Assembly: GCA_947588995.1 (NCBI GenBank)
Contig: CANPZI010000012.1
Location: forward strand, 1-64,000
Length of the DNA: 64,000 nucleotides
Direction: 5' to 3'
Source: an uncultured Lachnospiraceae bacterium
Lineage (GTDB): Bacteria; Bacillota; Clostridia; Lachnospirales; Lachnospiraceae
The notes under the pieces were generated by a model. The model worked only from the letters and a program-made list of their open reading frames with translations, was not told where the DNA came from and did no database searches. Position numbers and translations under genes: made by a program. Each line of letters begins with the position of its first letter. Position 1 is the stretch's first letter. Of this stretch, positions 1,099 to 59,714 are shown piece after piece.

Positions 1099-1152
1099 AG
1101 ACAGCGCCCCATAAATAAGGGCGCGCCAAATCGTCTCCAATTTTATAAAAGA

Positions 1153-1198
1153 GCCACCGCCCGGTCAAATATCTGACCGCTGCGATGGCCTTTTCTTT
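1153..1198. terminator. Bidirectional rho-independent terminator
   Basis: An imperfect hairpin with arms around GCCACCGCCCGGTCA and TGACCGCTGCGATGGC (1153-1189) is followed by TTTTCTTTT on the plus strand and by TCTTTT on the minus strand. It lies between two converging genes and can serve both. A second hairpin (GCGCCC/GGGCGC, 1104-1124) precedes it on the hydrolase side. Confidence 0.75.
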
Positions 1199-1224
1199 TG
1201 TCTTGTACAAACATTCAAATTTTA

Positions 1225-2133
1225 TCAGATCGTAAAATCATATCTGCCGCCGCTCTCCGGCATTTTCTCCGGCTTAACGGCATCCCAGTCGATCCCGTTC
1301 ATCTTCTTAAGAAGCTCCTCTAAGCTGTCCGCCTCCACCTCGGCGCGCTTTGTGTCCGGCCTGTTCTCGGCATACCTGTCAATCTCTTTCTCCGCTTTCT
1401 TCTCCTCTTCTCTTCTCTCGGAGCGCTTATTCTCAAGGCGCTCCCGCTGCTTCGCACTTGATTTTTCCAGTTCCGCGAAGAAAGAAGTCGTACCGTCGTC
1501 GTTGAAGACGATGCCTACCTTGCTGATCTCTGCTCCGTTTCTCTTCTGGCCGAACTGCTCGCAGATCTGCTTGGACATATCTACGGCATGTTCCATAGAC
1601 TGCAGCTTCTCTTTGGCATAATCCGCGTCGTTCGCCATCTTTTCCAGTTCTTCATTGGAGAAGATGATCGAAAACTCCTTACTGCCGCTCTTTGCCAGCC
1701 CTTTCAGGTCGTCGCCGCTGTTGCCGACGAAGAAATCATAATCGCCGTACTGCTTCCGCAGATTTTTCAGAAAATCCTGTGCCTTTGCCGAAAGCCTGGA
1801 CTCATTCGACCCGAATGTATGATTGACACCATCGGAAGAAATGGTACCGTCCTTTAGACCTTTTTTGATCTTATCCTCCCATTTTGACATAAAACGTAAT
1901 CTGGAATAGCTGCCCGGACTTAAACTGTCCTGCTCTTTCAGTTTACTGTACTGTGCATATGCTTCCGGATCATATTTTTCCATCAGCTTTTCCATATCTG
2001 CCACTTCACAGGATTTGTTGGTGGTATCCCTGAGATCTTCCAGAGTTCTCGGCTTAAAAGTCCGCCCCTTGATCGAGGGTTTTGGCATGCCGTAAGCATT
2101 CTGATAACCGCCAGATGTGATATCCATACCCAT
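1225..2133 (-). CDS. DUF6033 family protein, function unknown
   Basis: A 302-residue soluble protein without signal peptide or membrane segment. Its N-terminal part is rich in short polar motifs (MGMDITSGGYQNAYG), the middle contains a KYDFFVGNSGDD-like conserved region (here YGDYDFFVGNSGDDLK), and the C-terminal third (about 220-275) is a highly charged predicted coiled coil rich in Lys, Arg and Glu. I recognise it as one of the DUF6033 hypothetical proteins common in Lachnospiraceae; no biochemical role is known to me. The start follows AAAGGAGGACGAATT. It sits downstream of the radical SAM gene but has its own upstream region with two tandem palindromes, so it may be independently regulated. 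Confidence 0.75.
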   Translation of the reverse strand: MGMDITSGGYQNAYGMPKPSIKGRTFKPRTLEDLRDTTNKSCEVADMEKLMEKYDPEAYAQYSKLKEQDSLSPGSYSRLRFMSKWEDKIKKGLKDGTISSDGVNHTFGSNESRLSAKAQDFLKNLRKQYGDYDFFVGNSGDDLKGLAKSGSKEFSIIFSNEELEKMANDADYAKEKLQSMEHAVDMSKQICEQFGQKRNGAEISKVGIVFNDDGTTSFFAELEKSSAKQRERLENKRSERREEEKKAEKEIDRYAENRPDTKRAEVEADSLEELLKKMNGIDWDAVKPEKMPESGGRYDFTI

Positions 2134-2155
2134 AATTCGTCCTCCTTTGACTAAA

Positions 2156-2200
2156 GTAAATTATTTCATAATTTACTTGTAAATTATTTCATAATCTACT
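2156..2200. repeat. Two tandem copies of a 21-bp palindrome, probable operator
   Basis: Two copies of GTAAATTAT-TTC-ATAATTTAC (second copy with one change, ATAATCTAC) start at 2156 and 2179, a 23-base period. They lie between a TTGCAG -35-like element and the start of the DUF6033 gene on the minus strand, overlapping the likely -10 region. Confidence 0.6.
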
Positions 2201-2254
2201 TTTCTGCAACTCCGTTTGCCATAGTGTATGCTTTATTATCATATCGACATCTTG

Positions 2255-3979
2255 TCAGGAAATATTAACCTCACGCCAACATTCTTTTTCTCCTTTTTCA
2301 GAATAAAATACACAGGCGGTAAGATGTCCGAAAATATATTCAAAAATCTCTATGTGCAGCGTTTTCATCAGCTCTCTGTAACTACGATCCGACAGAGCCG
2401 GAAATATTGCGTGGGTCTTTGACTCCTCATAGATCATATCATGTATCCGTTCTTTCCACCGGTCTATAGACGGACAGAAAGCGGGACGGCTTTTCATATT
2501 AGGTTCGCGCAGATAGAGATCAAAGGTAAGATATTCACGGTAAATCGATATCATGCGCTCAGTTGAGGGATCTTGTCTTACACGACGGCAGGAAAGGTCA
2601 TCTTCTGCACCGAAAGTGATCCGGCTGATCCCGCATTCCAGAAGTGTCTCGTACTTTTGCACCCGTGACAATCGAATCCCGAACAGTCCGTGTTTCTCAT
2701 ACCACGCGGCAATATATTCATACATATCAAAAGGCGTCTCAAAATATCCGCACAGATATTTCAGCGATGTCCGAAACTGCCCGCTGTTATAATAGATCTC
2801 AAGCACTTCCTCAATCTGCTTCAAATGGCAGACTGCTTCATAGGAAAGCCATTTGGTAAAGAGCACTTCATAAGGCGGGAGAGCACTATACTGTAATCCG
2901 TACTCCTGTGCGTGAAGTTCCATAGCGGAACCTTTCAACACTTTCAGAAAGCCCAGCTGGAGCTGGTGAGGGTACAAATCATACACGTCATTAAAAGATC
3001 GCCTGAAAGAATCCATGTCTTCATAGGGAAGTCCGGCGATCAGATCGAGATGTACATGAATGTTATCCTTTTTTAAGATTCTTGTGACCGCAGCGGCAAC
3101 TTTACCAAAATCCATCCTGCGGTTGATCTCGCGTATGGTCCGTTCATTGGTAGACTGCACGCCGATCTCCAACTGCACCGCGCCGGAGCGCATCGATTCC
3201 AATACGGTCAGATAATCTTCGTCCAGCAGATCCGCGGCCATCTCAAAATGAAAATTGGTCACGCCGTTGTCATGTTCCAGAATATGCTTCAGGATCGGAA
3301 GGGCATGTTCTTTCCTGCAGTTAAAGGTGCGGTCAACAAATTTTACTTGAGGGACTTTTCTCTCCAAGAAAAAATCCAGTTCCCGGCACACGCGCTCCAC
3401 GGAACGGAAATCCATCGTTTTATCAATAGAGGAGAGGCAGTAACTGCAGGAAAAGGGACAGCCGCGGCTGCTCTCATAATAGATGATACGATGTTCATCT
3501 TCCTGCACATCTTCATACCAAAAGGGAATCTCATCAAGCGAAAGTCTATGTTCATGATTTCCGTCAAGGACTGCGGGAAGTTCGTCAGATGCATTCGCAG
3601 CATAAGAAGCTGCCAGACGCCGGAACACGCTTTCCCCCGGCCCCGTCATGATACCGCGGAGCTGCCACTTCCGTATCGTCTCCTCAGCATTGTAGGTGAT
3701 TTCGGGGCCGCCCGCCCAGATATCTGCATCGGGCAGCACTTTGTGCAGATCGAAGATAATGCTGTCAATCAGCCGATAATTCCAGATATAACAGGAAAAA
3801 GCAACGACATCAGGAGCTTTCTTATAGATTTCCTGCAGAATATAAGCGGGCTGTTGGTTGATCGTAAATTCAACGATATCGACAAGTGAGCCGTATTCGC
3901 TCGCACACGCTTTCAGAGAAAAGACTGCTGGATTGGAATGTATATACTTTGCATTGATCGCCACAAGTAATATTTTCAT
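2255..3979 (-). CDS. Cobalamin-binding radical SAM protein (DUF4080 type)
   Basis: A 574-residue protein with the order B12-binding domain (about 1-135), radical SAM core (about 160-370) and DUF4080-like C-terminal domain. The [4Fe-4S] ligands are Cys174, Cys178 and Cys181 in RGCPFSCSYC. The core contains FVDRTFN and the EIGVQSTN strand typical of this class. B12-dependent radical SAM enzymes methylate or rearrange unactivated carbons; the substrate here is unknown. It begins 10 bases after rsmG with AAAGGG as ribosome site, so it is the probable last-but-one gene of the mnmE-mnmG-rsmG transcript. That linkage hints at, but does not show, a role with RNA. Confidence 0.85.
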   Translation of the reverse strand: MKILLVAINAKYIHSNPAVFSLKACASEYGSLVDIVEFTINQQPAYILQEIYKKAPDVVAFSCYIWNYRLIDSIIFDLHKVLPDADIWAGGPEITYNAEETIRKWQLRGIMTGPGESVFRRLAASYAANASDELPAVLDGNHEHRLSLDEIPFWYEDVQEDEHRIIYYESSRGCPFSCSYCLSSIDKTMDFRSVERVCRELDFFLERKVPQVKFVDRTFNCRKEHALPILKHILEHDNGVTNFHFEMAADLLDEDYLTVLESMRSGAVQLEIGVQSTNERTIREINRRMDFGKVAAAVTRILKKDNIHVHLDLIAGLPYEDMDSFRRSFNDVYDLYPHQLQLGFLKVLKGSAMELHAQEYGLQYSALPPYEVLFTKWLSYEAVCHLKQIEEVLEIYYNSGQFRTSLKYLCGYFETPFDMYEYIAAWYEKHGLFGIRLSRVQKYETLLECGISRITFGAEDDLSCRRVRQDPSTERMISIYREYLTFDLYLREPNMKSRPAFCPSIDRWKERIHDMIYEESKTHAIFPALSDRSYRELMKTLHIEIFEYIFGHLTACVFYSEKGEKECWREVNIS

Positions 3980-42403: not shown

Positions 42404-44221
42404 TTACTTTAGAACGGCATGAAAAGACATATCTTGGCGGACCGGCGCGGAGAAGTCCGGCACAGAGCCGTCTTCCGTCACCCAGCCCTCAAAGTCGGCA
42501 TAGGACAGAACCGGCGTCGGCAGTTTAGGCAGGGTCTCTCCCTGAAAGACGGTGAAGACATCATATAGTACTTCATTGACATAAAGGCTTATCTGGTGTG
42601 TCGGACGCTCATCGATCCAGACCTGATCCAGAAAATCTTTGCGGGCAATGATATAGTCTGAGAGAAAGGCCAGAGATTCCTCCAGAGATTTTCCGCCGTC
42701 GTTTTTCCTGTATTGTTCCTGCCAGCGGAGCCTGTCCATCTGTGCGGAGGCAGCGGTGGTTTCGGCAAGTTCCGGCAGGGTCTGCTTGGCGAGACGTGTC
42801 AGATAGGAGCTGATTTCGCGTGCGTAGCAGTCTGTGACGAGCGCGTGGAAGTCCGGTTTCTCATAGAGGGCGGAAAACCACGAAGAAGCGTCCTGATGTG
42901 CCGCCAGCCTGGTGAGGGTGTCCGGCCTGTCAGACAGGTAGCCCAGATAGGCGGGCGTGTTGCCGAAGCTCACGTCATAGTCCCAGACCGGGCCGGCGCA
43001 CAGCCTGCCGTCTGCCGCGTCACTGTCTTTATAAAAAAAGGAACTGGCTACGCCGCCGTCGTAGTTGGCGGTGACTTCTTCCAGCAGATATTTGCGCGCA
43101 AAAGAATCCGCGTCGATCAGCTCCGTATAGCGGCGGCCCGTGGATAGATCGACGCCGTCCGGCGAGAGAATCGCATTCTCCGCGCTCTGCACGTAATCGC
43201 TGATGTAGGCCAGCTGTTTTTCGGAAGCGCAGGAGGGAGAGCGCAGGATGAAGCATTCTCCGGCAGCGGTGAGGAAATAACTGTCATTGTCCTGGACTTC
43301 TCTCAGGAAGCGGTCTTCAAAATCCCGCTCGATCAGATAGCCGCCGGTGATGTCCGTGGGATCGTTGGGGATGTCCGCGGCCTTGCCCGTCTCCGTCTGC
43401 ACGAACCCATAAACGCTCAAATCCTGGTGGGTATTGACGTTCCTTGTGGCCGTTTCCAGATCGGTGATGTCGAGACGGTTTTCCTTTACTTCTACTTTTT
43501 CCGTCACATAGTAATTGCCCGCGTAGGAACCGTTCAGGTACAGATCGATGAAGACGCCGTCGTCTGACTGTGCCAGTCCCAGATGTTGTGCCAGATCGCG
43601 CGCGAGGGCATTGCGCAGAAGTGTGGGATCGGCGGCATTGGCGAGCAGAATCCAGGTTTTGCCCTCCTCCATGCCAAGCAGGGGAACCGCGTCTGCGAAT
43701 TTGATTTGATAGGGTTTTTTGTCGAATTCCAGATAAGATTTGTTTCCCCGGCTTTTGATATATTCTAATGGCTGATACAGGCTGACTTCGCCGTCCGCGG
43801 TGAGTACGGTGAGCGTAGCCGGTTCCCGATATTCTTTGTCATGGTCTATAGTCTCAAATGTTTCGGATGTAGTGTCGATAAAGACGGCGGGGAGATGCGC
43901 GGAACAGAGGCGGACGACGGGAATCCCGTCGATCTCCTCCGGCAGATCGTCGGCAAGCGTCATATCGCTGCGGCAGGCAGCAGGCAGAAAAGCGTAATAG
44001 GAACCGCCCTGCCGCCACAGGGCGACGGGATGTCCGGCTACATTGACAACAGGGCCGTCCTGCCGCATGCGGCCGGCGGCATATTCCTGAAAGGAAGTGG
44101 GGGGGGGTACATTGATCTTCCGGGCGTCGTCGTATCGGACAAGACTGTTTCCCAGAAGCAGGAGAATCAGAGCAGCGAATAATATAAAAATAAAGCGGAG
44201 ATTGCGCGTTCTTTTCATCAT
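42404..44221 (-). CDS. CotH-like kinase family protein
   Basis: A 605-residue protein with an N-terminal membrane anchor (FIFILFAALILLLLGNSLV) and a large outer domain with the CotH pattern: KSRGNKSYLEFDKKPYQIKF, LLANAADPTLLRNALARDLA, DLYLNGSYAGNYYVTEKVEV, LIERDFEDRF, then GPVWDYDVSFG with the metal Asp. CotH proteins phosphorylate surface proteins. The end carries a listeria-like beta repeat (FTVFQGETLPKLPTPV). A C9 run encodes three Pro after the anchor. The start is uncertain: no ribosome site, and ATG 44221 or 44218 is preferred over GTG 44254, which would leave only 14 bases of leader. Confidence 0.85.
   Translation of the reverse strand: MMKRTRNLRFIFILFAALILLLLGNSLVRYDDARKINVPPPTSFQEYAAGRMRQDGPVVNVAGHPVALWRQGGSYYAFLPAACRSDMTLADDLPEEIDGIPVVRLCSAHLPAVFIDTTSETFETIDHDKEYREPATLTVLTADGEVSLYQPLEYIKSRGNKSYLEFDKKPYQIKFADAVPLLGMEEGKTWILLANAADPTLLRNALARDLAQHLGLAQSDDGVFIDLYLNGSYAGNYYVTEKVEVKENRLDITDLETATRNVNTHQDLSVYGFVQTETGKAADIPNDPTDITGGYLIERDFEDRFLREVQDNDSYFLTAAGECFILRSPSCASEKQLAYISDYVQSAENAILSPDGVDLSTGRRYTELIDADSFARKYLLEEVTANYDGGVASSFFYKDSDAADGRLCAGPVWDYDVSFGNTPAYLGYLSDRPDTLTRLAAHQDASSWFSALYEKPDFHALVTDCYAREISSYLTRLAKQTLPELAETTAASAQMDRLRWQEQYRKNDGGKSLEESLAFLSDYIIARKDFLDQVWIDERPTHQISLYVNEVLYDVFTVFQGETLPKLPTPVLSYADFEGWVTEDGSVPDFSAPVRQDMSFHAVLK
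44099..44107 (-). repeat. C9 (G9) tract inside the CotH-like gene
   Basis: Nine G on the plus strand, read as CCC-CCC-CCC (Pro-Pro-Pro, in NVPPPTSF) just after the membrane anchor. A change of one base would cut the protein to a short anchor. Confidence 0.7.
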
Positions 44222-44274
44222 GGTATTTCGGAGGCAGGTCTGTGCAGGCTTCACGGATTGATATTGACAGGTTT

Positions 44275-44377: not shown

Positions 44378-44455
44378 ATTACATAATCGGCGGGCGTGAT
44401 AAGCGAATACCTGCATTATGTATTTTCGCATTATGCGGAAAAGAACGGAGAACGT

Positions 44456-45685
44456 ATGGAACAAAAAGAGAAAAAGCAGTGGATCTTTTTGGGCGCTGCG
44501 GCGATTGGATTATTGCTTACCTATGCTGCGCTGATGGTAACGCGGGGAACTTTTGTAGATCAGCTGACTTACAGCGAGAGTATTTTTGCGGATTTTTGGT
44601 CTCATATAGACAGATTGATGCGCGGTGGAAATATCTATGGGGCTGATGCCGATGCGGTCTTTCCTCCGCTTGCGTATCTATTTCTCAAAATATTTGCCTG
44701 CCCGCTCCAATACAAAGCCAATGCCGGACAAAATGCCGCGGAAATATCGATTACGGGTTTTGGCATTTTGACGATAGCCATGTATCTGCTTCTGTTTGGT
44801 TATCTCTTCTGCATTGCTGTCCGTATGCTTTCCCGGGATCATGCAAAAGAGAGAGTCTCCACAATGGTTTCAGGCGTTTTGCTGTTTTCTTATGCCGTTT
44901 GGGGGTTTGCGTTTGAGCGTGGGAATCTGACAATGTACGCGATGCTGTTTTTGATGTTTGGCATGGCGCTGCGAAACTCATCCAGCCGGGTGCTGAGAGA
45001 ACTTTCCCTTCTTTGTGTCGCCATATCGGCCGGATTTAAGCTGTATCCTGCGCTGTTCGGTTTTTTGTGGCTGGCAGAGCGCCGCTATAAGGAAGCGGTC
45101 AGACTGGTTATCTACGGGCTGCTGATGTTTCTGCTGCCGTTTCTTTTTGTGGGCGGCTTTTCCGATTATCTGCAGACTTTTCAGTTGTATTTGGATAAGA
45201 GAATCTATTCCCACGCTTCTGTGTGGGGACTCGTCATGAATCATTTTCCGGGCATGGCTGAAAGCCATAAGAGATTTCTTTGCGAGGGCATTGTGCTTCT
45301 GATTGTTTTATGGGCGTTATTTGCCCTGTTTACCGATGGCGTCAACTGGAAAACCATAACGCTTCTGACGGCTACCCAGACAGTGATTATTCCCGAACAG
45401 TATGTATACACATATGTGTTTATTGCCATTCCGCTGGTCTTATTCCTCGACGAAAACGTGAAATCTCAGTGGGAATATATTTATGCGGTGCTGTTTGCCG
45501 CCTTGTTTACGCTGCCCCCTGTTGTCAGCAGGGGCGGGCGAGGCAGGCAGATGTGTTTTATCTGGGTGGTTATTCTGATACTCGTCTCGATCGATGAGAT
45601 ATATACTCTCGCGGCGCGCCGCCGCTCCCGTTATTCCAAAAACAGGCCCACAGGACAGTGGTCAGAACCGAATACGTTCGTGTAG
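44456..45685 (+). CDS. GT87-like (DUF2029) polytopic glycosyltransferase
   Basis: A 409-residue protein with about ten membrane segments. The first outer loop has [21 protein letters not shown] and [14 protein letters not shown] with the acidic residue expected in this GT-C family; [18 protein letters not shown] follows. It probably transfers a mannose-like sugar from a lipid carrier. ATG at 44456 follows ACGGAG. Its last 55 bases overlap the converging exonuclease gene. Confidence 0.8.
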
Positions 45686-49246: not shown

Positions 49247-50317
49247 CTATCCTTTCTGCCTGCGAAACTTCTCCGCGTCCCAGTTTAGCAGTTCGTCCGC
49301 CTGCGCTTCGCTCAGACAGTTTATTTTCTGTCCGAGGTTTCCGCGCTGTACTCTTGCCGCGAAACTCATCACATTCTCAATCTCCTGCGCCTTGCGCACG
49401 CTCTCCGCCAGAATATAGAAACTGCCCTCGTGATAGATCAGCGCGGGCTCGCCGTACCGCTCCATAAAATCCGTTATATCCGCCGCCTTATATTCTTTTT
49501 CGAGCCGCAGCAGCTTCTTGTTCGCATAGACCACGCAGTCCGGGCAGAAAGTATGCTCCCACACCCCCGGCTCCGCCAGCGGTTCACCCGCATATTCCCG
49601 CGACAGATAGCGGTTTTCCGAGAGGTAGACGATATTGCCGGCCAGCGCGTCGATCTGACCGAGCGTCTGCCAAAGCTTTGTCGCCTCACGGTAAGCGCGG
49701 TCGTCGATCTTAAGATACGCCGCGATCTTCTGCAGAACGTCTTCTGTCCGCGCGATCACTTCGCCGCCGTCGCCGCCGCTCACCACCAGTCCGTGATTTG
49801 CCAGGAAGACGACCTGGCCGTCCGCGCCCTGCGCCTGCTGTTCTCTGTACAATTTATAATAAGTCTCCGCCAGCGCCGCGCCCGGCTTGCGGTAAGGGAC
49901 GAACACCGCCTGTGGAAAAAGGCTGTGCAGAATGTCCATGCCGCCCTCTCTGGCGGTCAGGATATTCACCAGGGTCGGATGCGAATGCAGCGTATATTTT
50001 CCCGTGACGGCATGCAGGAATGTCTCGATAGAGGCGCGTCCGCCATCGATCTGTGCCTTGGCGAGAAGCGCCTTGCCGTTCTCTTCGGTCAGGACGTCCT
50101 CGCTATGCGTTCCCACATGGTCCCTGAAATAGTCGGTGATGGTTCGGTAATTTACTCTGGAATAGCCGGTCTGTTCGTTCACATCCGCCAGCTGAAATCC
50201 CGAACTTTTGACGAGCATGACATCTTCGTCAAGCTTGACGGAAGTGTTTCCGCCGCCCGCCTGCGCCAGGTCATTGCGCATACCGGCGTATCTGGATATT
50301 CTGATAAAATCCTGCAT
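49247..50317 (-). CDS. Class II aldolase/adducin family protein
   Basis: A 356-residue protein, longer than simple class II aldolases (about 220). The N-terminal aldolase domain has GGGNTSVK (phosphate loop), the zinc pair HSHPTL and the third His in ANHGLVVSGGDGGE. About 140 extra C-terminal residues hold a Cys pair (FCPDC) and a further domain. ATG at 50317 follows GAGAGG. Coupled to the tandem nucleotidyltransferase, it may make the three- or four-carbon-linked sugar that is activated next; this is inference. Confidence 0.85.
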   Translation of the reverse strand: MQDFIRISRYAGMRNDLAQAGGGNTSVKLDEDVMLVKSSGFQLADVNEQTGYSRVNYRTITDYFRDHVGTHSEDVLTEENGKALLAKAQIDGGRASIETFLHAVTGKYTLHSHPTLVNILTAREGGMDILHSLFPQAVFVPYRKPGAALAETYYKLYREQQAQGADGQVVFLANHGLVVSGGDGGEVIARTEDVLQKIAAYLKIDDRAYREATKLWQTLGQIDALAGNIVYLSENRYLSREYAGEPLAEPGVWEHTFCPDCVVYANKKLLRLEKEYKAADITDFMERYGEPALIYHEGSFYILAESVRKAQEIENVMSFAARVQRGNLGQKINCLSEAQADELLNWDAEKFRRQKG

Positions 50318-51128: not shown

Positions 51129-51193
51129 AGATTTCGTTATAGTTTTTGCCTTTTTTAGAAAAATATGTATGCGAAAGGAAGTTTCCGCGAAAG

Positions 51194-52762
51194 ATGCTGT
51201 TCAACTCATACATTTTTATCTTTCTGTTTCTGCCGCTTGTGCTGATCGGCTGGTACGGATTGAATTACAGAGGAAAATATAAGGCTGCCAACGTCTTTCT
51301 GGCAGGCATGTCGCTGTGGTTCTATGCCTATTTCAACGTCCGCTATCTGGCGGTCATATTGGCCAGCATCGGCCTGAATTATCTGCTGAGCTTCCTGCTG
51401 ACCCTTATTCCCGCGGAAGATTCACACACAGAGCCCGCCGATGAAGCTGCTGCGGATGCGGGTCCGCGCACTTTTCATCTTCATACGGCGCTGTGGCGGC
51501 GTGTCGGGCTTTTGGCGGGCCTTGTCCTGAATCTCGGCATCCTGTTTTATTTTAAGTATTATGACTTTTTTATCGAAAATATCAATCTTGCGTTCCATAC
51601 AGACTTTACGCTTCGGCATGTTCTGCTGCCTCTGGGAATCAGTTTCTTCACGTTTCAGCAGCTGTCGTTTATCATCGACAGATGCCTGGGGCGGTGCGAA
51701 CATTATTCTCTGATCAACTATGTCACGTTTGTCACCTTTTTCCCCCAGCTGATTGCCGGGCCGATTGTTCTCTATAAAGAGATGATTCCGCAGTTTGAGG
51801 ATATTTCCAGGAGAAGATTTGAAGCGGCTTCTTTTTCCAGAGGCATCTATCTGTTTGTGCTGGGACTGTCGAAAAAGGTGCTTCTGGCGGACACTTTTGC
51901 GCTGATGGCAAATTATGGTTTTGCGCAGACTTTTTCTCTGGACACGCTCTCCACGATCGCCGTGATTCTGGCCTATACCTTTGAACTGTACTTTGATTTC
52001 AGCGGTTACTCCGATATGGCGATAGGACTGGGCAGGATGTTCAATATTGAGCTGCCCGTGAACTTCAATGCGCCTTACCGTGCCTGCAGCATTAAGGAGT
52101 TCTGGCAGAGATGGCACATTACGCTCTCCCGCTTTTTTGTCACCTATGTGTATATTCCGCTGGGCGGCAGCAGGAGAGGGCGCGTGCGGATGTTAGTCAA
52201 CACGTTTGTCATCTTCCTCTTAAGCGGCCTGTGGCACGGCGCGGCCTGGACTTATGTGGCGTGGGGCGCGATGCAGGGGCTTCTGGTGGTCTGGGACAAT
52301 CTGGGTGTCGTCGGTATCCGGGGACGGGAGGAAAAGAGGCCGTCCCGTTTTCACATTCCCGCGTGGCTGGGCTGGATTTTTACTTTCTCGCTGTTCAATC
52401 TCTCGCTCTTCTTTTTCAGAAGCGAAAGCATGATGGGCGCCATGCAGCTCTTTAAGAATCTTTTCGCGGGGAACTGGACAGGCAAAATTTATGAGATTGC
52501 CGCCCGCCTCGACCTGTCGGAAGTTTATATCTGTAAACAGGCGCTGGAACTGGCGGCCCCCGGTATGATGTCATATTTTTATCTGGCTGTCATGCTGCTG
52601 CTGTTTGCATTGGCATTTTTTCTGGTCTTTTGTCCCACCGCTTACGAGAGAAGTATGCGCGGAGAGCTGACGTCCGGCCGCTGTTGGGTGATCTGTATTT
52701 TGTTTGTGTGGTGTATCGTGTCGATGTCGGAAGTGAGCACGTTTTTGTATTTTAATTTTTAG
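51194..52762 (+). CDS. MBOAT-family O-acyltransferase (AlgI-like)
   Basis: A 522-residue polytopic enzyme. It has LPLGISFFTFQQLSFIID, FFPQLIAGPIV, DFSGYSDMAIGLGRMF, WQRWHITLSRFFVTYVYIPLGG and SGLWHGAAWTYVAWG with the catalytic His. MBOAT proteins of this type pass acyl groups across the membrane to envelope glycans. The ATG at 51194 (MLFNSYIFIFLF) is the family start. It leads the seven-gene operon and pairs with the SGNH-like gene next to it. Confidence 0.92.
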   Translation: MLFNSYIFIFLFLPLVLIGWYGLNYRGKYKAANVFLAGMSLWFYAYFNVRYLAVILASIGLNYLLSFLLTLIPAEDSHTEPADEAAADAGPRTFHLHTALWRRVGLLAGLVLNLGILFYFKYYDFFIENINLAFHTDFTLRHVLLPLGISFFTFQQLSFIIDRCLGRCEHYSLINYVTFVTFFPQLIAGPIVLYKEMIPQFEDISRRRFEAASFSRGIYLFVLGLSKKVLLADTFALMANYGFAQTFSLDTLSTIAVILAYTFELYFDFSGYSDMAIGLGRMFNIELPVNFNAPYRACSIKEFWQRWHITLSRFFVTYVYIPLGGSRRGRVRMLVNTFVIFLLSGLWHGAAWTYVAWGAMQGLLVVWDNLGVVGIRGREEKRPSRFHIPAWLGWIFTFSLFNLSLFFFRSESMMGAMQLFKNLFAGNWTGKIYEIAARLDLSEVYICKQALELAAPGMMSYFYLAVMLLLFALAFFLVFCPTAYERSMRGELTSGRCWVICILFVWCIVSMSEVSTFLYFNF

Positions 52763-52805
52763 GGCTGTGTATTATACTTTACGGGAAACAGGAGCGGTAT
52801 AAGTG

Positions 52806-53894
52806 ATGGACAGGAAGCAAAAAGAATCTGCGGTGTGCGATCAAAACATAAAATTTCTGCGGCAATTCGCCGTGCGGACAGCCGCGCTGCTTATTGTCGT
52901 TATCGGCGTTGTGGTGCTCTTCGATCCGTTCTATCAGTATCATGCGCCGCTGCCGGGCCTGAAAGCGATATTGACCGACAAAGAGTACCAGTGTGTCGGC
53001 ACACTGCGCAATTTCGACTATGACGCACTGATCGTCGGCTCATCGGTCTGTGAGAACTACAATAACCACTGGTTTGACGAGGGGTTTGACTGCACCGCCA
53101 TCAAGGCAATCCGCTCCTACGGCGCTACCGCCGATCTCTGCTATCTTCTGGATCAGGCTTACGCAACGCATGAACTGCGATATGTATTCTATAATATTGA
53201 CCCCTCCTCCCTGTCAGCGAGCACGGAGCCGACCTATGAGCTGACAAAGTGCCCGATGTATCTGTATGACCGACGCTTTTTGAACGATTATCCCTATTGG
53301 CTCAACAAGGGCGTGCTGTTGGAAAAGATTCCGTATATGCTCGCCTATTCTTTCATCGGGGAGTATGACGAGGGGAACTCTTACAATTGGGCGCAGTGGA
53401 AATATTTCGGTCAGGATCTGGCGATGGGCATGTACACCAGACTTCCCGACGTGAAACAGATGCAGCCGGAGACGGCAAACGCCGCCGAGCTTGCCGGCAA
53501 TATCGCGCTGCTCACGGCGCAGGTCGAGGCGCATCCCGAGACGACGTTCAAATTTTTCTTCTCGCCTTATTCCATGCTCTGGTGGGACAATGCCTGCCGG
53601 AGCGGAGAGCGCGACGCCGTGATCTACAATGAGAAGCAGGCTGTCGGCGCCCTGCTCGCCTATGACAATGTAGAGATCTACTTCTATCAGGACGATGAGG
53701 ACGTGATCACGAATCTGGATAACTACATGGATATGATTCATTTCTCCAAAGATATCAATTATGAGGTCTGCGACAAGCTGGTAAGGGGCGAAGAGCGGCT
53801 GACGGAAGACAATTACGAGGAACGCCTGGAACGGATGCGCGCCTTATCCGACCGGATTGTGCGGGAGGATATTCTGGCATATTATGCGGAGTAA
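52806..53894 (+). CDS. SGNH/AlgX-like partner of the MBOAT enzyme
   Basis: A 362-residue protein with one N-terminal membrane anchor (ALLIVVIGVVVLFDPFY) and an outer domain with the catalytic Ser in LIVGSSVCENYNN and the Asp-His in YMDMIHFSKDIN. This is the layout of AlgX/DltD-type proteins that complete O-acylation together with an MBOAT. The gene starts 43 bases after the MBOAT stop. ATG 52806 or GTG 52803 may start it. Confidence 0.85.
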   Translation: MDRKQKESAVCDQNIKFLRQFAVRTAALLIVVIGVVVLFDPFYQYHAPLPGLKAILTDKEYQCVGTLRNFDYDALIVGSSVCENYNNHWFDEGFDCTAIKAIRSYGATADLCYLLDQAYATHELRYVFYNIDPSSLSASTEPTYELTKCPMYLYDRRFLNDYPYWLNKGVLLEKIPYMLAYSFIGEYDEGNSYNWAQWKYFGQDLAMGMYTRLPDVKQMQPETANAAELAGNIALLTAQVEAHPETTFKFFFSPYSMLWWDNACRSGERDAVIYNEKQAVGALLAYDNVEIYFYQDDEDVITNLDNYMDMIHFSKDINYEVCDKLVRGEERLTEDNYEERLERMRALSDRIVREDILAYYAE

Positions 53895-53905
53895 AGACAA
53901 CCCTG

Positions 53906-56110
53906 ATGACTTTGACGGACAAATTTCAAACATGGCAAAGTGTATTCGGGTATGATAGAATGAGAGAAAAAGGAACAGGGATCTGTGATTTTATGTTAGG
54001 CAGGCTGCGCATATTGGACTGGGAAAAAAATTATTATAAGATGCTGACGGCAATCGTCGCGGGGACAGTTCTGTTCAAGCTGCTCCTGATGGGACTGTTC
54101 TCGTCGGATTATCAGGATCTGATGTTCATCCCTTTCGTACAGTGTTTTCTGGACGGGAAAAATCCCTACCAGTATTACTATGACAATCAGCTGTTGTCCT
54201 CATTCCCCTATCCGCCGGTGATGCTGTTCGTCGAGTGTATCGGGGGAGTTCTCGTGAGGGCGGGCGCGGGGCTCTCTGTCTTTGCGCGCAATCTGCTTTT
54301 CAAGCTGCCGCTCTTGCTGATGGATCTTCTGGGACTGTATTATCTGATGCGCATTTCGAAATCGCGGCGAAAATATATTCTTGCGCTGTACTTTCTGTCT
54401 CCGATTGTACTGTACGCCACCTACATGCACGGGCAGCTCGATATCATCCCGACGGTATTTCTGGTGGGCGCGATCTACTATCTGACAGAAACGGGTGTAT
54501 CCGCGGAGCAGGCAAGGCGCAACGACGGAAAGTTTGTGGCGTTTCTTGCCCTCTCCCTGGCGTCCAAATTTCACATTGCGGTGGTGCTGCCGCTGTTTTT
54601 CCTGTATCTCTATAAGAAAAAGGGGAGAAAGAAAGCGGTGGTTTTGACCGGTCTGCCGATTTTGTTTACGGCGATCATTGTCTCGCCTTTCTGGGGGAGC
54701 GGTTTTATGAATATGGTGCTCTTCAATAAAGAGCAGAGCGTGATTGGCGACGTCTATGTCGAATACGGAAGCGCGCACCTGCTTCTGTGTGTGCTGGTAC
54801 TGCTTTTGGTTTATTTTCAGGCGTTCCATATCAACCAGATGAACAGAGATCTGCTGATCAGTATGACAGGTCTTCTCTTCTCGGTATTTCTCGCGTTCGT
54901 ACCGGCCATGCCAGGGTGGTATATCTGGGTGGTGCCTTTTATCATGCTGTATCTGGCAGGGCTGTCGGTCAGCAGGAGCAAGATGGTTTTAGTCTACGGC
55001 GTTTTCAATCTGCTGTATCTTCTGTACTATATCTGTTTTCATGTGACGCGGTTTACGGATCTGTCGTTTCTGGGCAGGAATCTGGACGGATTGAAGTATA
55101 TAAACGAGGGCGCTAAAAATATTGTGTTTACACTGATGGTTGGCGTCTTTATGATTCTGGTCGTTTTTATGTATCTGTATGGCGTGAACAGCAATTCCTA
55201 CTACCGCAGGCGCAGCCGTCCTTTTACCATCGGTATTGCGGGGGACAGCGGAGCGGGTAAGAGCAGACTGCTCGTCATGCTGGACGAGCTGCTCTCCGAG
55301 GACAGTATTCTGAATATTGAGGGCGACGGCGATCACAGATGGGAGCGGAATGACGCGAACTGGAACGATATGACGCACTTAAATCCGCTCGCCAACTATC
55401 TGTACAGGCAGGCGGAGGATCTGCGCATCCTGCGCGGCAACAATGCGGTGAAGAGGGCGGACTACGATCACGGGACAGGGACGTTTACCGGAAAGAGACG
55501 GGTTGCGCCGAAGCCGTACATCGTCATGTGCGGGCTGCATTCACTCTATCTCCCGCAGATGCGGCAGGTGCTGGATCTGAAAATCTATCTGGACACGGAT
55601 GAGGAGCTGAGACGCCGCTGGAAACTGGCGAGAGATCAGGGCGACCGGGGACATACGGTCAGGGAGGCGGCGGCGCAGATAGAGAGACGGCGGGGCGACG
55701 CGGAGAAGTATATTTATCCCCAGAAGCAGTACGCCGACCTGGTGATCCGCTATTTTGACACCGCGCGGCCGGATGGCCGTACGGAGCCGGACGAGGGCGG
55801 CCGGGTCATTCTTGGTGTGGAATTTTTGATGGATGTCGGCATCAATATTGAGCCTATGCTGGGCCTTTTGCAGGAGCAGGGCATAAGCGGCAATCTCGTC
55901 TATGACAGGGATCTGCTGCATCAGAGAATGGTATTTGACGGGACGGATTTGAAGAAGATCGGCGGGAATATCTGGGAGAAGATTGCCCGCGCGGCGATTC
56001 CGCAGATGGAAGATCTGACCGGCGGGCGGATTGTCTGGGAGGACGGCACCAACGGTCTGGTGCAGGTGATCCTGCTGATGGTGATCGGTGAGATCATGAA
56101 GAGGGATTAG
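53906..56110 (+). CDS. GT87-like membrane protein fused to a uridine-kinase-like domain
   Basis: A 734-residue fusion. Residues about 45-420 are a GT-C type membrane enzyme with ten or so segments (FVQCFLDGKNPYQYYYDNQL, SSFPYPPVMLFVE, YMHGQLDIIPTVFLVG, LASKFHIAVVLPLFFLYLY). Residues about 435-734 are a PRK/uridine-kinase P-loop domain: Walker A GIAGDSGAGKSRLL near 445, EGDGDHRWERND, YDHGTGTF, GLHSLYLPQMRQVLDLKIYL, RRWKLARDQGDRGHT and YIYPQKQYADLVI. The kinase has all key elements. It may phosphorylate a polyol, nucleoside or lipid sugar that the membrane half uses. The start is weak: no clear ribosome site, and 53960 or 53993 are alternatives. Confidence 0.82.
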   Translation: MTLTDKFQTWQSVFGYDRMREKGTGICDFMLGRLRILDWEKNYYKMLTAIVAGTVLFKLLLMGLFSSDYQDLMFIPFVQCFLDGKNPYQYYYDNQLLSSFPYPPVMLFVECIGGVLVRAGAGLSVFARNLLFKLPLLLMDLLGLYYLMRISKSRRKYILALYFLSPIVLYATYMHGQLDIIPTVFLVGAIYYLTETGVSAEQARRNDGKFVAFLALSLASKFHIAVVLPLFFLYLYKKKGRKKAVVLTGLPILFTAIIVSPFWGSGFMNMVLFNKEQSVIGDVYVEYGSAHLLLCVLVLLLVYFQAFHINQMNRDLLISMTGLLFSVFLAFVPAMPGWYIWVVPFIMLYLAGLSVSRSKMVLVYGVFNLLYLLYYICFHVTRFTDLSFLGRNLDGLKYINEGAKNIVFTLMVGVFMILVVFMYLYGVNSNSYYRRRSRPFTIGIAGDSGAGKSRLLVMLDELLSEDSILNIEGDGDHRWERNDANWNDMTHLNPLANYLYRQAEDLRILRGNNAVKRADYDHGTGTFTGKRRVAPKPYIVMCGLHSLYLPQMRQVLDLKIYLDTDEELRRRWKLARDQGDRGHTVREAAAQIERRRGDAEKYIYPQKQYADLVIRYFDTARPDGRTEPDEGGRVILGVEFLMDVGINIEPMLGLLQEQGISGNLVYDRDLLHQRMVFDGTDLKKIGGNIWEKIARAAIPQMEDLTGGRIVWEDGTNGLVQVILLMVIGEIMKRD

Positions 56111-56114
56111 GGAC

Positions 56115-56780
56115 ATGATAAGAGCGGTGATAATCGATCTGGATGATACCTTGTATGCTTTTGCGCCGTTGGATGAGGAAGCGCGGCGGCTCGTGCGGGA
56201 ATATCTCTGCGGACAGCTGCCTGTCACGGCGCAGCGGTATGAGGAGGCATTTGCGGCAGGCAGGCGGGAGACGAAGCGTCGTTTGGGAGATGTGGCCGCA
56301 TCGCACAACAGAATGTTGTATTTTCAGAAGACGCTTGAGAATCTGGGTGTGAATCCCGTGCCGATGAGTCTGAAACTGTACGAGCTATACTGGGGGACAA
56401 TCCTGCACAGGATGAGGCTCAATGACGGCGCGCGGGAATTTCTCGACCGGATGCGTGAGCGCGGCGTACGGGTGATGATCTGTACGGATCTGACGGCGCA
56501 GATTCAGCATCGCAAGATCGAGGCGCTGGGGATAGCCGGAGATATCGCCGGACTGGTGACCAGCGAGGAGGCGGGCAGGGAGAAGCCGTCGCCGGAGATT
56601 TTCAGGTTATGCCTGGACAAGCTGGGACTGCCGGCGGAGGAAGTCTGCTGTATCGGCGACAGCCCGGCCAGGGATGTGGAGGGTGCGCACACAGCCGGCA
56701 TGCGGGCGATGCTCTTTCGGCCTGACCGGCCGAGTGCGCCGCAGTTTGCACGGATGGCGGAGATGATAGAAACGGATTGA
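56115..56780 (+). CDS. HAD-family hydrolase
   Basis: A 221-residue HAD phosphatase with C1 cap: motif I IIDLDDTLYAF, motif II ICTDLT, Lys in GREKPSPEIF and motif IV CCIGDSPARDVEGA. It follows the fusion gene by 4 bases. A phosphatase next to a kinase suggests processing of phosphorylated sugar or polyol. Confidence 0.9.
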   Translation: MIRAVIIDLDDTLYAFAPLDEEARRLVREYLCGQLPVTAQRYEEAFAAGRRETKRRLGDVAASHNRMLYFQKTLENLGVNPVPMSLKLYELYWGTILHRMRLNDGAREFLDRMRERGVRVMICTDLTAQIQHRKIEALGIAGDIAGLVTSEEAGREKPSPEIFRLCLDKLGLPAEEVCCIGDSPARDVEGAHTAGMRAMLFRPDRPSAPQFARMAEMIETD

Positions 56781-56792
56781 ACGGAGGAAATG

Positions 56793-57491
56793 ATGAAACT
56801 TTCGGTTGTAGTACCCTGTTATAATGAAGAACAGAATATTCCGCTGATGCTTTCGCGTTTCGGCGAGGTCATAGAGCGGGACGATATTGAGATTATTCTG
56901 GTGGACAATGGCTCTACGGACGACAGCGCGCGGGTACTCTCCGAGCTGCTGCCGGCCTATCCCTTTGCGAAAAGCGTGAAAGTGGAGGTCAATCAGGGCT
57001 ACGGCTACGGCATCCTGCAGGGACTTAAGGAATGCCGGGGCGAGTATGTCGGCTGGACCCATGCGGATATGCAGACCGATCCCGCGGATATCCTGAGAGC
57101 GCTTGCCGTCATAGAGGGGGAGAACGGCCTCGTGTTCGTCAAGGGAAACCGCAGGGGCCGGCCGCTTTTCGATGTGTTTTTCACGATGGGTATGAGTCTG
57201 TTCGAGACGTGCTATCTGCGGACGAAACTGTATGACATCAATGCACAGCCGAATCTTTTTCCCAGAGTATTCTATGATTCCTGGGAGAACCCGCCGCACG
57301 ATTTTGCCCTGGATCTCTACGCCCTGTACATGGCGCGCAGGAGAGGCCTTAAGGTGGTCAGGTTCCCGGTACTCTTCCCAAAGCGGATCTATGGCGAGTC
57401 CAAGTGGAATACCGGACTTAAGGCCAAGTGGAAATTTATCAAAAGAACGATAATGTTCAGTGTGAATCTCAGGAAAAACGGCAATGTATAA
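56793..57491 (+). CDS. GT2 family glycosyltransferase
   Basis: A 232-residue GT-A enzyme with KLSVVVPCYNEEQN, IILVDNGSTDDS and the metal motif GWTHADMQTDPAD. It resembles the polyprenyl-phosphate sugar synthases (DPM1/GtrB) but lacks membrane segments. It could make the lipid-linked donor used by the GT-C enzymes encoded beside it. The second of two ATG codons (56793) is spaced best from GGAGG. Confidence 0.9.
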   Translation: MKLSVVVPCYNEEQNIPLMLSRFGEVIERDDIEIILVDNGSTDDSARVLSELLPAYPFAKSVKVEVNQGYGYGILQGLKECRGEYVGWTHADMQTDPADILRALAVIEGENGLVFVKGNRRGRPLFDVFFTMGMSLFETCYLRTKLYDINAQPNLFPRVFYDSWENPPHDFALDLYALYMARRRGLKVVRFPVLFPKRIYGESKWNTGLKAKWKFIKRTIMFSVNLRKNGNV

Positions 57492-57522: not shown

Positions 57523-58116
57523 ATGGAATATATCGCGCACAGAATCAACACGGTGGAGGAACTTAAGACGCTGCCTGCCGAGTACGGCGTGGAACTGGAT
57601 CTGCGGGATGATCTGAACGGCAGGATTTATATTTCGCACAATCCCTTTGAGGCGGGGGAGGATTTTGAGGACTACTGCAGAGCGTATCATCATGGGACAA
57701 TGATCCTGAATATCAAGAGTGAACGGATCGAGCACAAAGTGCTGGAGTACATGGGACAGTACCATATTGAGAAATATTTTTTTCTCGATTCTTCTTTTCC
57801 GATGATCAAGCTGCTCACTGATATGGGCGTCAGGGATATCGCACTGCGCTTCAGTGAGCTGGAGGGTATAGACACTCTCCGCAATATGGCGGGGCGCGCC
57901 GATTGGGTCTGGGTGGACTGCTTCACGAGGATTCCGCTTGACCGCGACAGCTGGCGGGAATTGCGGGAGCTGGGATATAAGCTGTGTTTTGTCTCCCCGG
58001 AGCTGGAGGCGCAGGAGGAGAAGCTTCCGGCCTATAAGAAGTATATAGAGGAGCAGGGGATCGTATTTGACGCGATCTGCACAAAGCGTTATCATATTGA
58101 TGACTGGAAAGCATAG
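57523..58116 (+). CDS. GDPD-like phosphodiesterase
   Basis: A 197-residue TIM-barrel-like protein. It begins EYIAHRINTVEEL (catalytic-type His-Arg), followed by YGVELDLRDD and ISHNPFEAGE, the metal and second His positions, as in glycerophosphodiesterases; DAICTKRYH is the end. The family is distant and shorter than usual GDPD (about 240). It may act on a glycerol- or sugar-phosphate link. AGGAGG precedes the ATG at 57523. Confidence 0.7.
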   Translation: MEYIAHRINTVEELKTLPAEYGVELDLRDDLNGRIYISHNPFEAGEDFEDYCRAYHHGTMILNIKSERIEHKVLEYMGQYHIEKYFFLDSSFPMIKLLTDMGVRDIALRFSELEGIDTLRNMAGRADWVWVDCFTRIPLDRDSWRELRELGYKLCFVSPELEAQEEKLPAYKKYIEEQGIVFDAICTKRYHIDDWKA

Positions 58117-58127
58117 GAGCGCGGTAT

Positions 58128-59714
58128 ATGAAGAAGATAAAGCAAAAGGCCGGCATGGCGGCGGCGATTCTGGCGACGCTGGCAGCGGGGATTCTCGTAT
58201 TTTACAGACATTGGCAGTTTGAACTGCCGTTGTGCCCGAATGTGGATGAGCAGATGTCCCTGGAGCAGATCGGGAATCTGCTGAATCAGCATATTTACGT
58301 GGGCGATGTCTATGTGCTGGACTTCTTCCGCTATCCGCATCTGACTTTTTATTACGCAGTGCTGGGCGTCCGGCTGCTCGGCAGACTTCTGGCCGTGGCG
58401 GACACTGCCATGCTGGCGCGCTATGTCGTCTGCGGTACGGCGCTCCTCTCCAATGTGTGCGTTTATTTCTCCGTGAAAAGGATGACGGGAGAGCGCGGCT
58501 TAAGTTTTATGGCATTTGTGCTGTCAGTCTTTTCTCTGTACGGCTACGCTTATTTGTACTACACGGGACCGGACACGATGATTTACGCCGTGGCGAATGT
58601 CATCCTGTTTCTCGGCTGCGTGATCTGGCAGGATAACTGCGAGGACAGGGTAGTCTATCTGTGGTATCCGCTTCTCGCTGTCTGCATCGGACTGGCCACA
58701 GCCGCGAAGTACCACGGGATTTTGTTCGGGCTTTTTTGGCTGGCGCTGCATGTGCGCAAGGGATTCTGGAAAAGCTACCGGGATAATTTTTTGTTCTTTC
58801 TCAACTGTATCATACTGGCGTTGGCGTTCTGCCTGTGCAATTATTCGCTGTTCTTTCATTTCAAGACTTTTGTCGGGGATAACCTGTACAATTTCAACCA
58901 TTACGCGTGGGGGCATCCCGGCATAGAGCACAATCTGCCGCTTCTGGGATATACGGAGGCGTATGCGCTCAGCGGTTACGGTATCGTGGGCGGCGTGCTG
59001 ATTCTTGTGGGAGTGGTCTGTCTGTTTCGCAGAAAAGATTGGAAACAGGCGGTCGTGTTTCTCCTGATGCCTGTCTTTGTGATTCTGTTTCTGTCGAGAT
59101 ATCAGATCATGCTCGGCCGTAATCTGGCGCTCGTGCTGCCGTTTTCCTATCTCTTTATGGCATACGGGCTGGCGGCGCTCAGGGCGGTTCTGCGCAGGAG
59201 AGAGCGACGTGGCGGTAAGGCTGTACTGCCGGTGCTTGTGGGGCTGATGGCGGTGTGCAATATCCTGACGGCGTGCGGCAGTTACCGCTATGACCTGACT
59301 TATGCGCAGGCGATGCGGTATATCGAGGAGCAGATTCCGGAGGGCGCGGTGATTTACTGCACTTCTTTCGCGCCGGCCATCGATCCGGAACGCTATGAGG
59401 TGATTGATATCGGAGAGGATATGAGGCGTCCGCCGGATATCCTTGGAGAGGGAGAATACTTTGTGGATGTGCAGTATGCCACGGGATATTTCAGCCAGCG
59501 AAAGGATTATCTGCTCTTTCAGGGCGGCGACATGTACCCTGACCTGAAGAGCCTGTACGAGCAGAAACTGGAGAATTACACGTGCCTGCAGTTTTATCGG
59601 GGCATCTCTTACGGCGGGGAGTGGAAGTATCGGATCGGCTATCTGGATTGGTTCCGATACAGTCCGAAAGAATATTATGTCGGGCCGAGCATCGGCATAT
59701 ACGGCGGCGGGTGA
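58128..59714 (+). CDS. GT39-like polytopic glycosyltransferase
   Basis: A 528-residue membrane protein with about eleven segments and a C-terminal outer domain. The first outer loop has CPNVDEQMSLEQ, an Asp-Glu pair as in PMT/ArnT enzymes, and LDFFRYPHLTFYYAVLG follows. It should transfer a sugar from polyprenyl phosphate at the outer face. Last gene of the operon, 11 bases after the phosphodiesterase. Confidence 0.82.
   Translation: MKKIKQKAGMAAAILATLAAGILVFYRHWQFELPLCPNVDEQMSLEQIGNLLNQHIYVGDVYVLDFFRYPHLTFYYAVLGVRLLGRLLAVADTAMLARYVVCGTALLSNVCVYFSVKRMTGERGLSFMAFVLSVFSLYGYAYLYYTGPDTMIYAVANVILFLGCVIWQDNCEDRVVYLWYPLLAVCIGLATAAKYHGILFGLFWLALHVRKGFWKSYRDNFLFFLNCIILALAFCLCNYSLFFHFKTFVGDNLYNFNHYAWGHPGIEHNLPLLGYTEAYALSGYGIVGGVLILVGVVCLFRRKDWKQAVVFLLMPVFVILFLSRYQIMLGRNLALVLPFSYLFMAYGLAALRAVLRRRERRGGKAVLPVLVGLMAVCNILTACGSYRYDLTYAQAMRYIEEQIPEGAVIYCTSFAPAIDPERYEVIDIGEDMRRPPDILGEGEYFVDVQYATGYFSQRKDYLLFQGGDMYPDLKSLYEQKLENYTCLQFYRGISYGGEWKYRIGYLDWFRYSPKEYYVGPSIGIYGGG

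Follow-up and report, generated by a model that had tools for sequence, protein, structure and literature searches.

A fusion of a phosphoribulokinase-type kinase with a GT-C membrane half, in a conserved cassette that suggests a route to a surface sugar

Why should a cytosolic kinase be joined to a membrane transferase that is expected to act outside the cell? The question is raised by one gene in a 64,000-nucleotide stretch of DNA (here called the window) from the genome of an uncultured Lachnospiraceae bacterium. The gene is a single intact open reading frame (ORF) of 734 codons, in which a GT-C membrane half is followed by a P-loop kinase half of the phosphoribulokinase (PRK) type (Table 1). 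The presence of PRK is usually read as a sign of the Calvin cycle or of an archaeal RuBisCO pathway. To find it as one half of a membrane protein, with a conserved active site, in a glycan cassette of a genome without a RuBisCO match, gives this kind of enzyme a new candidate role. Together with its conserved neighbors, the fusion suggests an undescribed route for making an unusual sugar and attaching it to the cell surface. Both halves and the neighboring enzymes are of known kinds; no paper describing PRK joined to a GT-C protein, or the cassette around it, was found in the literature searched, most subscription journals lying outside its coverage.

We began from the architecture of the protein. 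Pfam placed a PRK domain at residues 442 to 616 (E = 3.2e-31, 109 bits), with a subthreshold Zeta_toxin match to the P-loop, and gave no match for the N-terminal half at E<=0.01. In the structure model, residues 37 to 428 have a GT-C fold whose nearest structures are ALG3, GPI mannosyltransferase I, and ALG6. Residues 437 to 733 align with PRK structure 9qkp and residues 430 to 734 with 5b3f, which gives a complete PRK fold including the C-terminal lobe; the lid near R481 is poorly modeled. The first-pass annotation had seen a GT-C part and a complete-looking P-loop kinase in one protein, and this description holds: prediction of the whole protein returns a GT-C fold (37 to 428) followed by an ordinary PRK fold (437 to 734), the sequences of both halves agree, and the fusion recurs in other genomes.

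A search of genome contigs found the fusion at 33 loci, mostly in Lachnospiraceae metagenome-assembled genomes and also in Lachnoanaerobaculum orale DSM 24553 and Flavobacterium phragmitis CGMCC 1.10370. The frame is broken at two loci (L057 and L067) and cut by a contig end at another (L061). The loci are not independent, since several near-identical groups stand among them (L036, L037, L038, and L040; likewise L051 and L052). In a sample of the family, 4 of 299 genomes carried the fusion (in G274 it is split into two pieces with stops), and most of the other 80 matching genomes carried a short kinase of ~23 to 31% identity. A sample of the phylum held the fusion in 2 of 398 genomes and a stand-alone PRK in 5. 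Further copies lie on plasmids of Escherichia coli (IncR plasmid p5-S1-CAM-01-A), Azospirillum brasilense (p5), and Hirschia baltica (pHbal01), where current annotation names them uridine kinase or phosphoribulokinase, or gives both names; in all, the fusion spans three phyla. On a different contig, the window's own genome carries another full-length fusion of 45% identity, and locus L035 also holds two. In E. coli, a DNA search for a characterized O-antigen with the cassette (megablast of the cassette and blastn of the fusion gene, which reach only relatives above roughly 65 to 70% identity) found carriers in 2 of 5426 genomes. Each copy lies on a plasmid, with 100.0% identity across the cassette, and hence no known glycan structure can be assigned to it. 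No match was found in phages by tblastn with the E. coli copy at E<=1e-10.

The genome of the window is a draft of 71 contigs, and a sequencing or assembly artifact, or two unrelated adjacent ORFs read as one, might be suspected. We reject this explanation and put its probability close to nil because the fusion recurs at full length in many assemblies, among them the two named strains, on complete plasmids, and as a paralog in the same genome.

The kinase half had initially been labeled uridine-kinase-like. Its best curated model is instead the phosphoribulokinase model NF005655, with 185 bits over residues 436 to 655 against a cutoff of 236; four fusions scored 185.4, 205.5, 182.7, and 192.8 bits, all below that cutoff. 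The uridine kinase models TIGR00235 (cutoff of 220.3) and NF004018 (cutoff of 180) gave 60.1 and 71.1 bits, and neither cutoff was reached. In a sequence search of solved structures, class II PRKs came out best (E of ~1e-33 over residues 437 to 624, versus 1e-12 for uridine kinases). A tree of 58 kinase domains separated 25 fusions and 7 stand-alone PRKs from 26 uridine kinase (udk) sequences with support of 100/100; the fusions formed one group at 93/77 and the PRKs another at 93/69. The tree omits L003, which the script's search did not match, and includes two long PRK branches (L073 and L082) and four rows of unusual composition. Uridine kinases are therefore the weaker relatives by sequence, fold, and tree, and we discarded the label in favor of a PRK type with the PRK sugar-phosphate residues in place. 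By sequence and predicted fold, the kinase half is of the complete class II PRK type.

To compare residues, we took the phmmer ranges with 5b3f (residues 434 to 620 on chain positions 32 to 218, equal in length) and applied a constant offset, assuming a 20-residue tag; a gapless alignment with 6gve sets the PRK motifs against the same residues of the fusion. In the Methanospirillum enzyme (MhPRK), the phosphate of ribulose 5-phosphate (Ru5P) is held by Arg59, Arg62, Tyr98, and His100, with His55 and Lys151 as further Ru5P residues and Arg154 as an ATP residue (PMC5241800). The catalytic dyad of the Chlamydomonas enzyme is Asp57/His105 (PMC9978339). The counterparts in the fusion are D474, H477, R481, A484, Y520, H522, and K573 (catalytic Asp/His and Ru5P) and R576 (ATP). 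All but position 484 are invariant in two alignments, 22/22 fusions in A1 (20 of the 33 loci, the window protein, and its paralog; row L049 begins at a non-start codon) and 9/9 in A2, which shares six of its fusions with A1. Position 484, equivalent to MhPRK Arg62, varies among the fusions, and it varies among PRKs too, being the position that the MhPRK paper itself excepts (PMC5241800). The kinase core is also the best-conserved part of the fusion and the C-terminal lobe the least: mean pairwise identities of the core, GT-C half, and C-lobe are 63%, 50%, and 37% in A1 and 46%, 30%, and 22% in A2. Judged by this mapping, the catalytic and Ru5P/ATP residues of PRK are kept in the fusions.

The fusion thus shares with class II PRKs (the plant, cyanobacterial, and archaeal type of NF005655; 5B3F, 6GVE, and 9QKP) the whole fold, the P-loop, the catalytic Asp/His, the Ru5P residues, and a joint clade against udk. 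It differs in being joined to a GT-C membrane protein, in scoring below the NF005655 cutoff, and in sitting in a glycan cassette rather than a Calvin operon; its Ru5P kinase activity is a prediction. No match to RuBisCO (PF00016) was found in the window's draft genome by a search that, as a control, matched 5 of 14 genomes. Of the five stand-alone PRKs in the phylum sample, four (L069, L070, L071, and L073) adjoin apparent pieces of ribulose-phosphate epimerase, fructose-bisphosphate aldolase, RuBisCO, or transketolase, as judged by eye from the first residues of the frames without a family search; L072 was not assignable. Of the two plasmid-borne PRKs, the Allomeiothermus copy lies in an annotated RuBisCO operon, and the Mycobacterium copy lies beside transketolase and epimerase genes, with an HAD-IA gene adjacent.

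The surroundings of the fusion are conserved as well. Genes for an HAD phosphatase, a GT2 glycosyltransferase, a nucleotidyltransferase, a small GDPD-fold protein, and a class II aldolase recur at nearly all of the 33 loci (Table 1), with GtrA at 9. These counts take ORFs of >=80 amino acids (aa) with a profile score of >=60 bits anywhere in the locus; the profiles were seeded from the window, L051, L055, L058, L062, L064, and the three plasmids, and the seed loci match by construction. On the same strand and within <=8 kb of the fusion, the counts are 33 for HAD, 33 for GT2, 31 for GDPD, 31 for nucleotidyltransferase, 28 for aldolase, and 9 for GtrA. The HAD gene starts within -120 to 400 nucleotides of the fusion's stop in 33/33 loci. 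L051 and L061, each lacking a cassette gene, are loci cut by contig ends. In the 64-kb window, the profiles match only the five cassette genes besides the fusion at E<=1e-8; aldolase and nucleotidyltransferase lie on the minus strand, with the MBOAT gene and its possible partner in between. The Azospirillum and E. coli plasmids have the same genes around the fusion in another order, and the Hirschia plasmid follows more loosely. As a linkage test, we ran the GDPD profile on both genome samples: scores of >330 bits came from G000 (the window's genome), G060, G242, and G274 of the 299 and from G000 and G611 of the 398, exactly the fusion-bearing genomes, five in all. Weak GDPD homologs (48 to 74 bits) occur at five other places of the family sample in a nucleotidyltransferase-HAD-GDPD triad, with neither kinase nor GT-C in the 3.5 kb seen.

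Table 1. Features of the fusion and its surroundings in the window
Feature	Coordinates	Strand	Remarks
GT-C/phosphoribulokinase fusion	53906..56110	+	734 aa; relatives in other genomes
GT-C membrane half, residues 37-428	54014..55189	+	FSSDYQ 65-70 (first loop; D68 = 54107-54109); HGQLD 175-179
Phosphoribulokinase-type P-loop core, residues 437-624	55214..55777	+	Walker A 446-453; D474, H477, R481, Y520, H522, K573, R576
PRK C-terminal lobe, residues 636-734	55811..56107	+	From structure alignment; least conserved part
HAD phosphatase	56115..56780	+	Best NCBIfam model RuBP 5-phosphatase, 180 bits versus cutoff 330; directly 3' of fusion in 33/33 loci
GT2, ArnC/DPM-like polyprenyl-phosphate glycosyltransferase	56790..57491	+	33/33 loci
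Small GDPD-fold protein	57523..58116	+	ORF opens at 57484, homology from 57523; 31/33 loci
Class II aldolase/adducin-family protein	49247..50317	-	ORF listed to 50803, homology from ~50317; 30/33 loci
Double nucleotidyltransferase, 556 aa	47569..49239	-	Two separate genes in divergent loci; 32/33 loci
Second large protein, GT-C/PMT-like by a look at its sequence and its place only	58128..59714	+	No Pfam match; homologs in 15/33 loci, accessory
MBOAT O-acyltransferase	51146..52762	+	Accessory, 13/33 loci
Protein upstream of fusion	52803..53894	+	No Pfam match; accessory, 12/33 loci

The cassette enzymes point to a pathway. The ribulose 1,5-bisphosphate (RuBP) 5-phosphatase model NF053830 is the best match in 5/5 cassette HADs scanned, at 168 to 187 bits, all below the cutoff of 330. 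The nearest solved structures to the GT2 protein by sequence are ArnC (9hwj) and DPM synthase (5mlz), and on this comparison it is a predicted polyprenyl-phosphate glycosyltransferase of the ArnC/DPM kind. GtrA accompanies the fusion on the three plasmids as well as at its 9 loci; none adjoins the fusion in the window, and three GtrA matches lie elsewhere in the genome. Because a PRK site, an RuBP 5-phosphatase-like HAD, and nucleotidyltransferases share one cassette, we propose that a phosphate is relocated. The cytosolic PRK half would phosphorylate the C1 hydroxyl of a pentose 5-phosphate (ribulose 5-phosphate-like, or an aldopentose 5-phosphate such as ribose 5-phosphate), the HAD would strip the 5-phosphate to leave the 1-phosphate, and the nucleotidyltransferase would convert this to a nucleotide sugar (X-5-P to X-1,5-bisphosphate to X-1-P to NDP-X, where NDP is nucleoside diphosphate). 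The aldolase would build or epimerize the sugar. GT2, GtrA, and GT-C proteins are the parts of three-component glycosylation, and we therefore propose that this follows: the GT2 protein would load the sugar onto polyprenyl phosphate, a GtrA from the cassette itself or from another part of the genome would flip the lipid-linked sugar, and the GT-C half would add it to a surface glycan outside. The fusion may thereby keep the first committed step and the last one, precursor commitment and final transfer, in step. We lean slightly toward this account, in which the fusion has two functions in a cassette for sugar activation and extracytoplasmic glycosylation, with the full phosphate-relocation route. 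A wider version, which we hold more tentatively and at a little below even chances, is that PRK left carbon fixation to serve as C1-kinase in the making of a lipid-linked five-carbon sugar, by a route not yet described, and was fused to the GT-C protein that spends this donor across the membrane; a single protein would then commit the precursor and complete the transfer, and the cassette would move between phyla, also on plasmids.

The proposed pathway meets a chemical difficulty: ribulose 1-phosphate is not anomeric. The substrate would therefore be an aldopentose 5-phosphate, or the donor would be of another kind. Nor does the pathway explain why the paralog keeps its kinase half. A chemical precedent exists in the activation of D-glycero-D-manno-heptose, in which GmhA, HddA/HldE, GmhB, and HddC take the 7-phosphate through the 1,7-bisphosphate and 1-phosphate to NDP-heptose. 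Like the route proposed here, it uses a C1 kinase, an HAD that removes the terminal phosphate, and then a nucleotidyltransferase; unlike it, the cassette has a PRK-type rather than a GHMP or PfkB kinase, a substrate that is probably C5, and a kinase fused to the transferase. Relatives of these heptose enzymes lie near the paralog. The paralog (L077:10507-12591, on contig C32 of G000) is at a separate locus. About 7 kb before it (L077 from 370 to 3290) are relatives of HddA and GmhA together with a nucleotidyltransferase that carries a fused GmhB-like domain, all scoring below the cutoffs of the corresponding HddA, HddC, GmhB, and GmhA models; the interval up to the paralog includes a YhgA-like transposase gene. 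A heptose-type activation set at this distance suggests, as far as sequence goes, that the paralog sits in a glycan locus.

The paralog also bears on the possibility that the PRK half serves chiefly to sense or to gate: by binding a sugar phosphate and ATP, or by turning them over, it would control the GT-C half, and the precursors would come from other enzymes. Both the paralog and the second fusion of L035 retain the kinase although they stand apart from a cassette that is already complete, or close to one, and a constant fusion of a cytosolic kinase to a transferase expected to work outside is hard to account for by supply alone. Yet the catalytic residues are kept in 22/22 and 9/9 sequences (the second L035 copy is not among them) and an RuBP phosphatase-like HAD follows the fusion in 33/33 loci, and both facts point to a kinase product that is used. 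We regard a sensor as unlikely.

The metabolic enzymes of the cassette could be read on their own as a noncarboxylating pentose bisphosphate shunt, in which kinase, HAD, and aldolase take Ru5P through RuBP and ribulose 1-phosphate (Ru1P) to dihydroxyacetone phosphate and glycolaldehyde and the GT-C half is a mere anchor or noncatalytic relative. In haloarchaea, an RuBP 5-phosphatase makes Ru1P, and its gene shares an operon with that of a FucA-type Ru1P aldolase (PMC9700705), which we count toward the phosphate relocation proposed above. That HAD and class II aldolase belong to the same broad classes as those of the cassette, but the haloarchaeal pair is catabolic, the cassette HADs score 168 to 187 bits against a cutoff of 330, and the RhaD-type part of PRK08324 is the closer relative of the cassette aldolase; for the L058 aldolase, the nearest solved structure is 3m4r, an uncharacterized protein. 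Against the shunt, nucleotidyltransferases (32/33), the DPM-like GT2 (33/33), and GtrA (9/33) are linked to the fusion as tightly as the metabolic enzymes are, and the GT-C half is conserved beyond the needs of an anchor (50% mean identity in A1, with D140, H175, Q177, D179, K221, and H223 invariant). These observations make the shunt improbable.

The first-pass annotation held that the kinase supplies or primes a phosphorylated substrate at the membrane. The conserved cassette indicates that the kinase most likely does feed the supply pathway of the transferase, but its substrate is probably a soluble sugar phosphate, several steps upstream, and not a lipid. A kinase acting on a lipid-linked sugar or polyprenol at the inner leaflet, with the kinase product as donor, would account both for fusion to a membrane protein and for the kinase being kept in both fusions of the genome. 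Ru5P-binding residues are nevertheless kept (by the mapping above), the model is an ordinary PRK fold over residues 437 to 734, and the nucleotidyltransferase and GT2 of the cassette would lead from a soluble 1-phosphate to the donor. We give such a lipid kinase slightly less credence than even the shunt.

For the second part of the proposed pathway, from polyprenyl phosphate to the surface, a comparison is offered by a three-component pentofuranose pathway with GT136, in which the flippase is of the MATE family and the synthase makes polyprenyl phosphoribose (PMC11127046). This version and GtrA/GtrB/GT-C systems share with the cassette a polyprenyl-phosphate sugar synthase (here GT2), a GT-C protein as the last component, and, at 9/33 loci only, a flippase (GtrA). 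The cassette differs in having nucleotidyltransferases, GT2, and a kinase-bearing GT-C as its donor and transfer enzymes; the only kinase mentioned for the pentofuranose pathway, in the text available, has to do with a chain terminator (PMC11127046). If the proposed pathway is true, it predicts two products without assigned genes so far, a nucleotide sugar and a surface sugar, as well as a kinase-phosphatase pair open to direct assay, and would physically link the first committed step of a glycosylation route to its last.

The GT-C half had been called GT87-like, an assignment that found no support: PF09594 (GT87) did not match the fusion in Pfam at E<=0.01, and we describe the half simply as GT-C. 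In A1, the first-loop acid D68 (in FSSDYQ) is present in 21/22 fusions, and the six residues listed above are present in 22/22. In A2, the first-loop acid is at position 68 in 5/9 sequences and at 69 to 71 (D/E) in Flavobacterium, Azospirillum, and Hirschia; H175 and Q177 are kept in 8/9 and H223 in 6/9. The E. coli plasmid copy (L074:9387-11435, in two plasmid records) has no first-loop acid in the alignment and neither H nor Q at the HGQ motif; its mapped kinase residues are kept. With these GT-C residues missing, this copy may be altered in its transferase half. In the family sample, eight other proteins match only the GT-C half; seven are frames of 1033 to 1101 aa. The matches are weak (E of 1e-7 to 6e-4; G157, G181, G192, G158, G074, G255, G270, and G129), and by sequence these proteins are unfused GT-C relatives within the same bacterial family. 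The ORF of the region that does match Pfam GT87 lies at 44396 to 45685 (E = 1.1e-9) and has no homolog in the 33 cassette loci.

Several minor features accompany the cassette. The nucleotidyltransferase-HAD-GDPD triad (loci L088 to L092) occurs in four other genomes and in the window's own (L092, on contig C41 of G000) and yielded no clue to a substrate. At L055, a second, inverted cassette lies beside the first (L055:16870-22025), with aldolase, GT2, and HAD genes, a 584-aa protein of no assigned family, and the end of a further fusion. In the Flavobacterium locus, GT2 is immediately preceded by a PMT_2 protein. Just upstream of the fusion in the window (51146 to 53894) are the MBOAT gene and a gene whose product we take, from its place, to be a possible DltD-like partner; the pair may acylate the same glycan. 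Farther upstream, a CotH kinase-family protein (PF08757, E = 7.9e-33) is encoded on the minus strand at 42404 to 44254.
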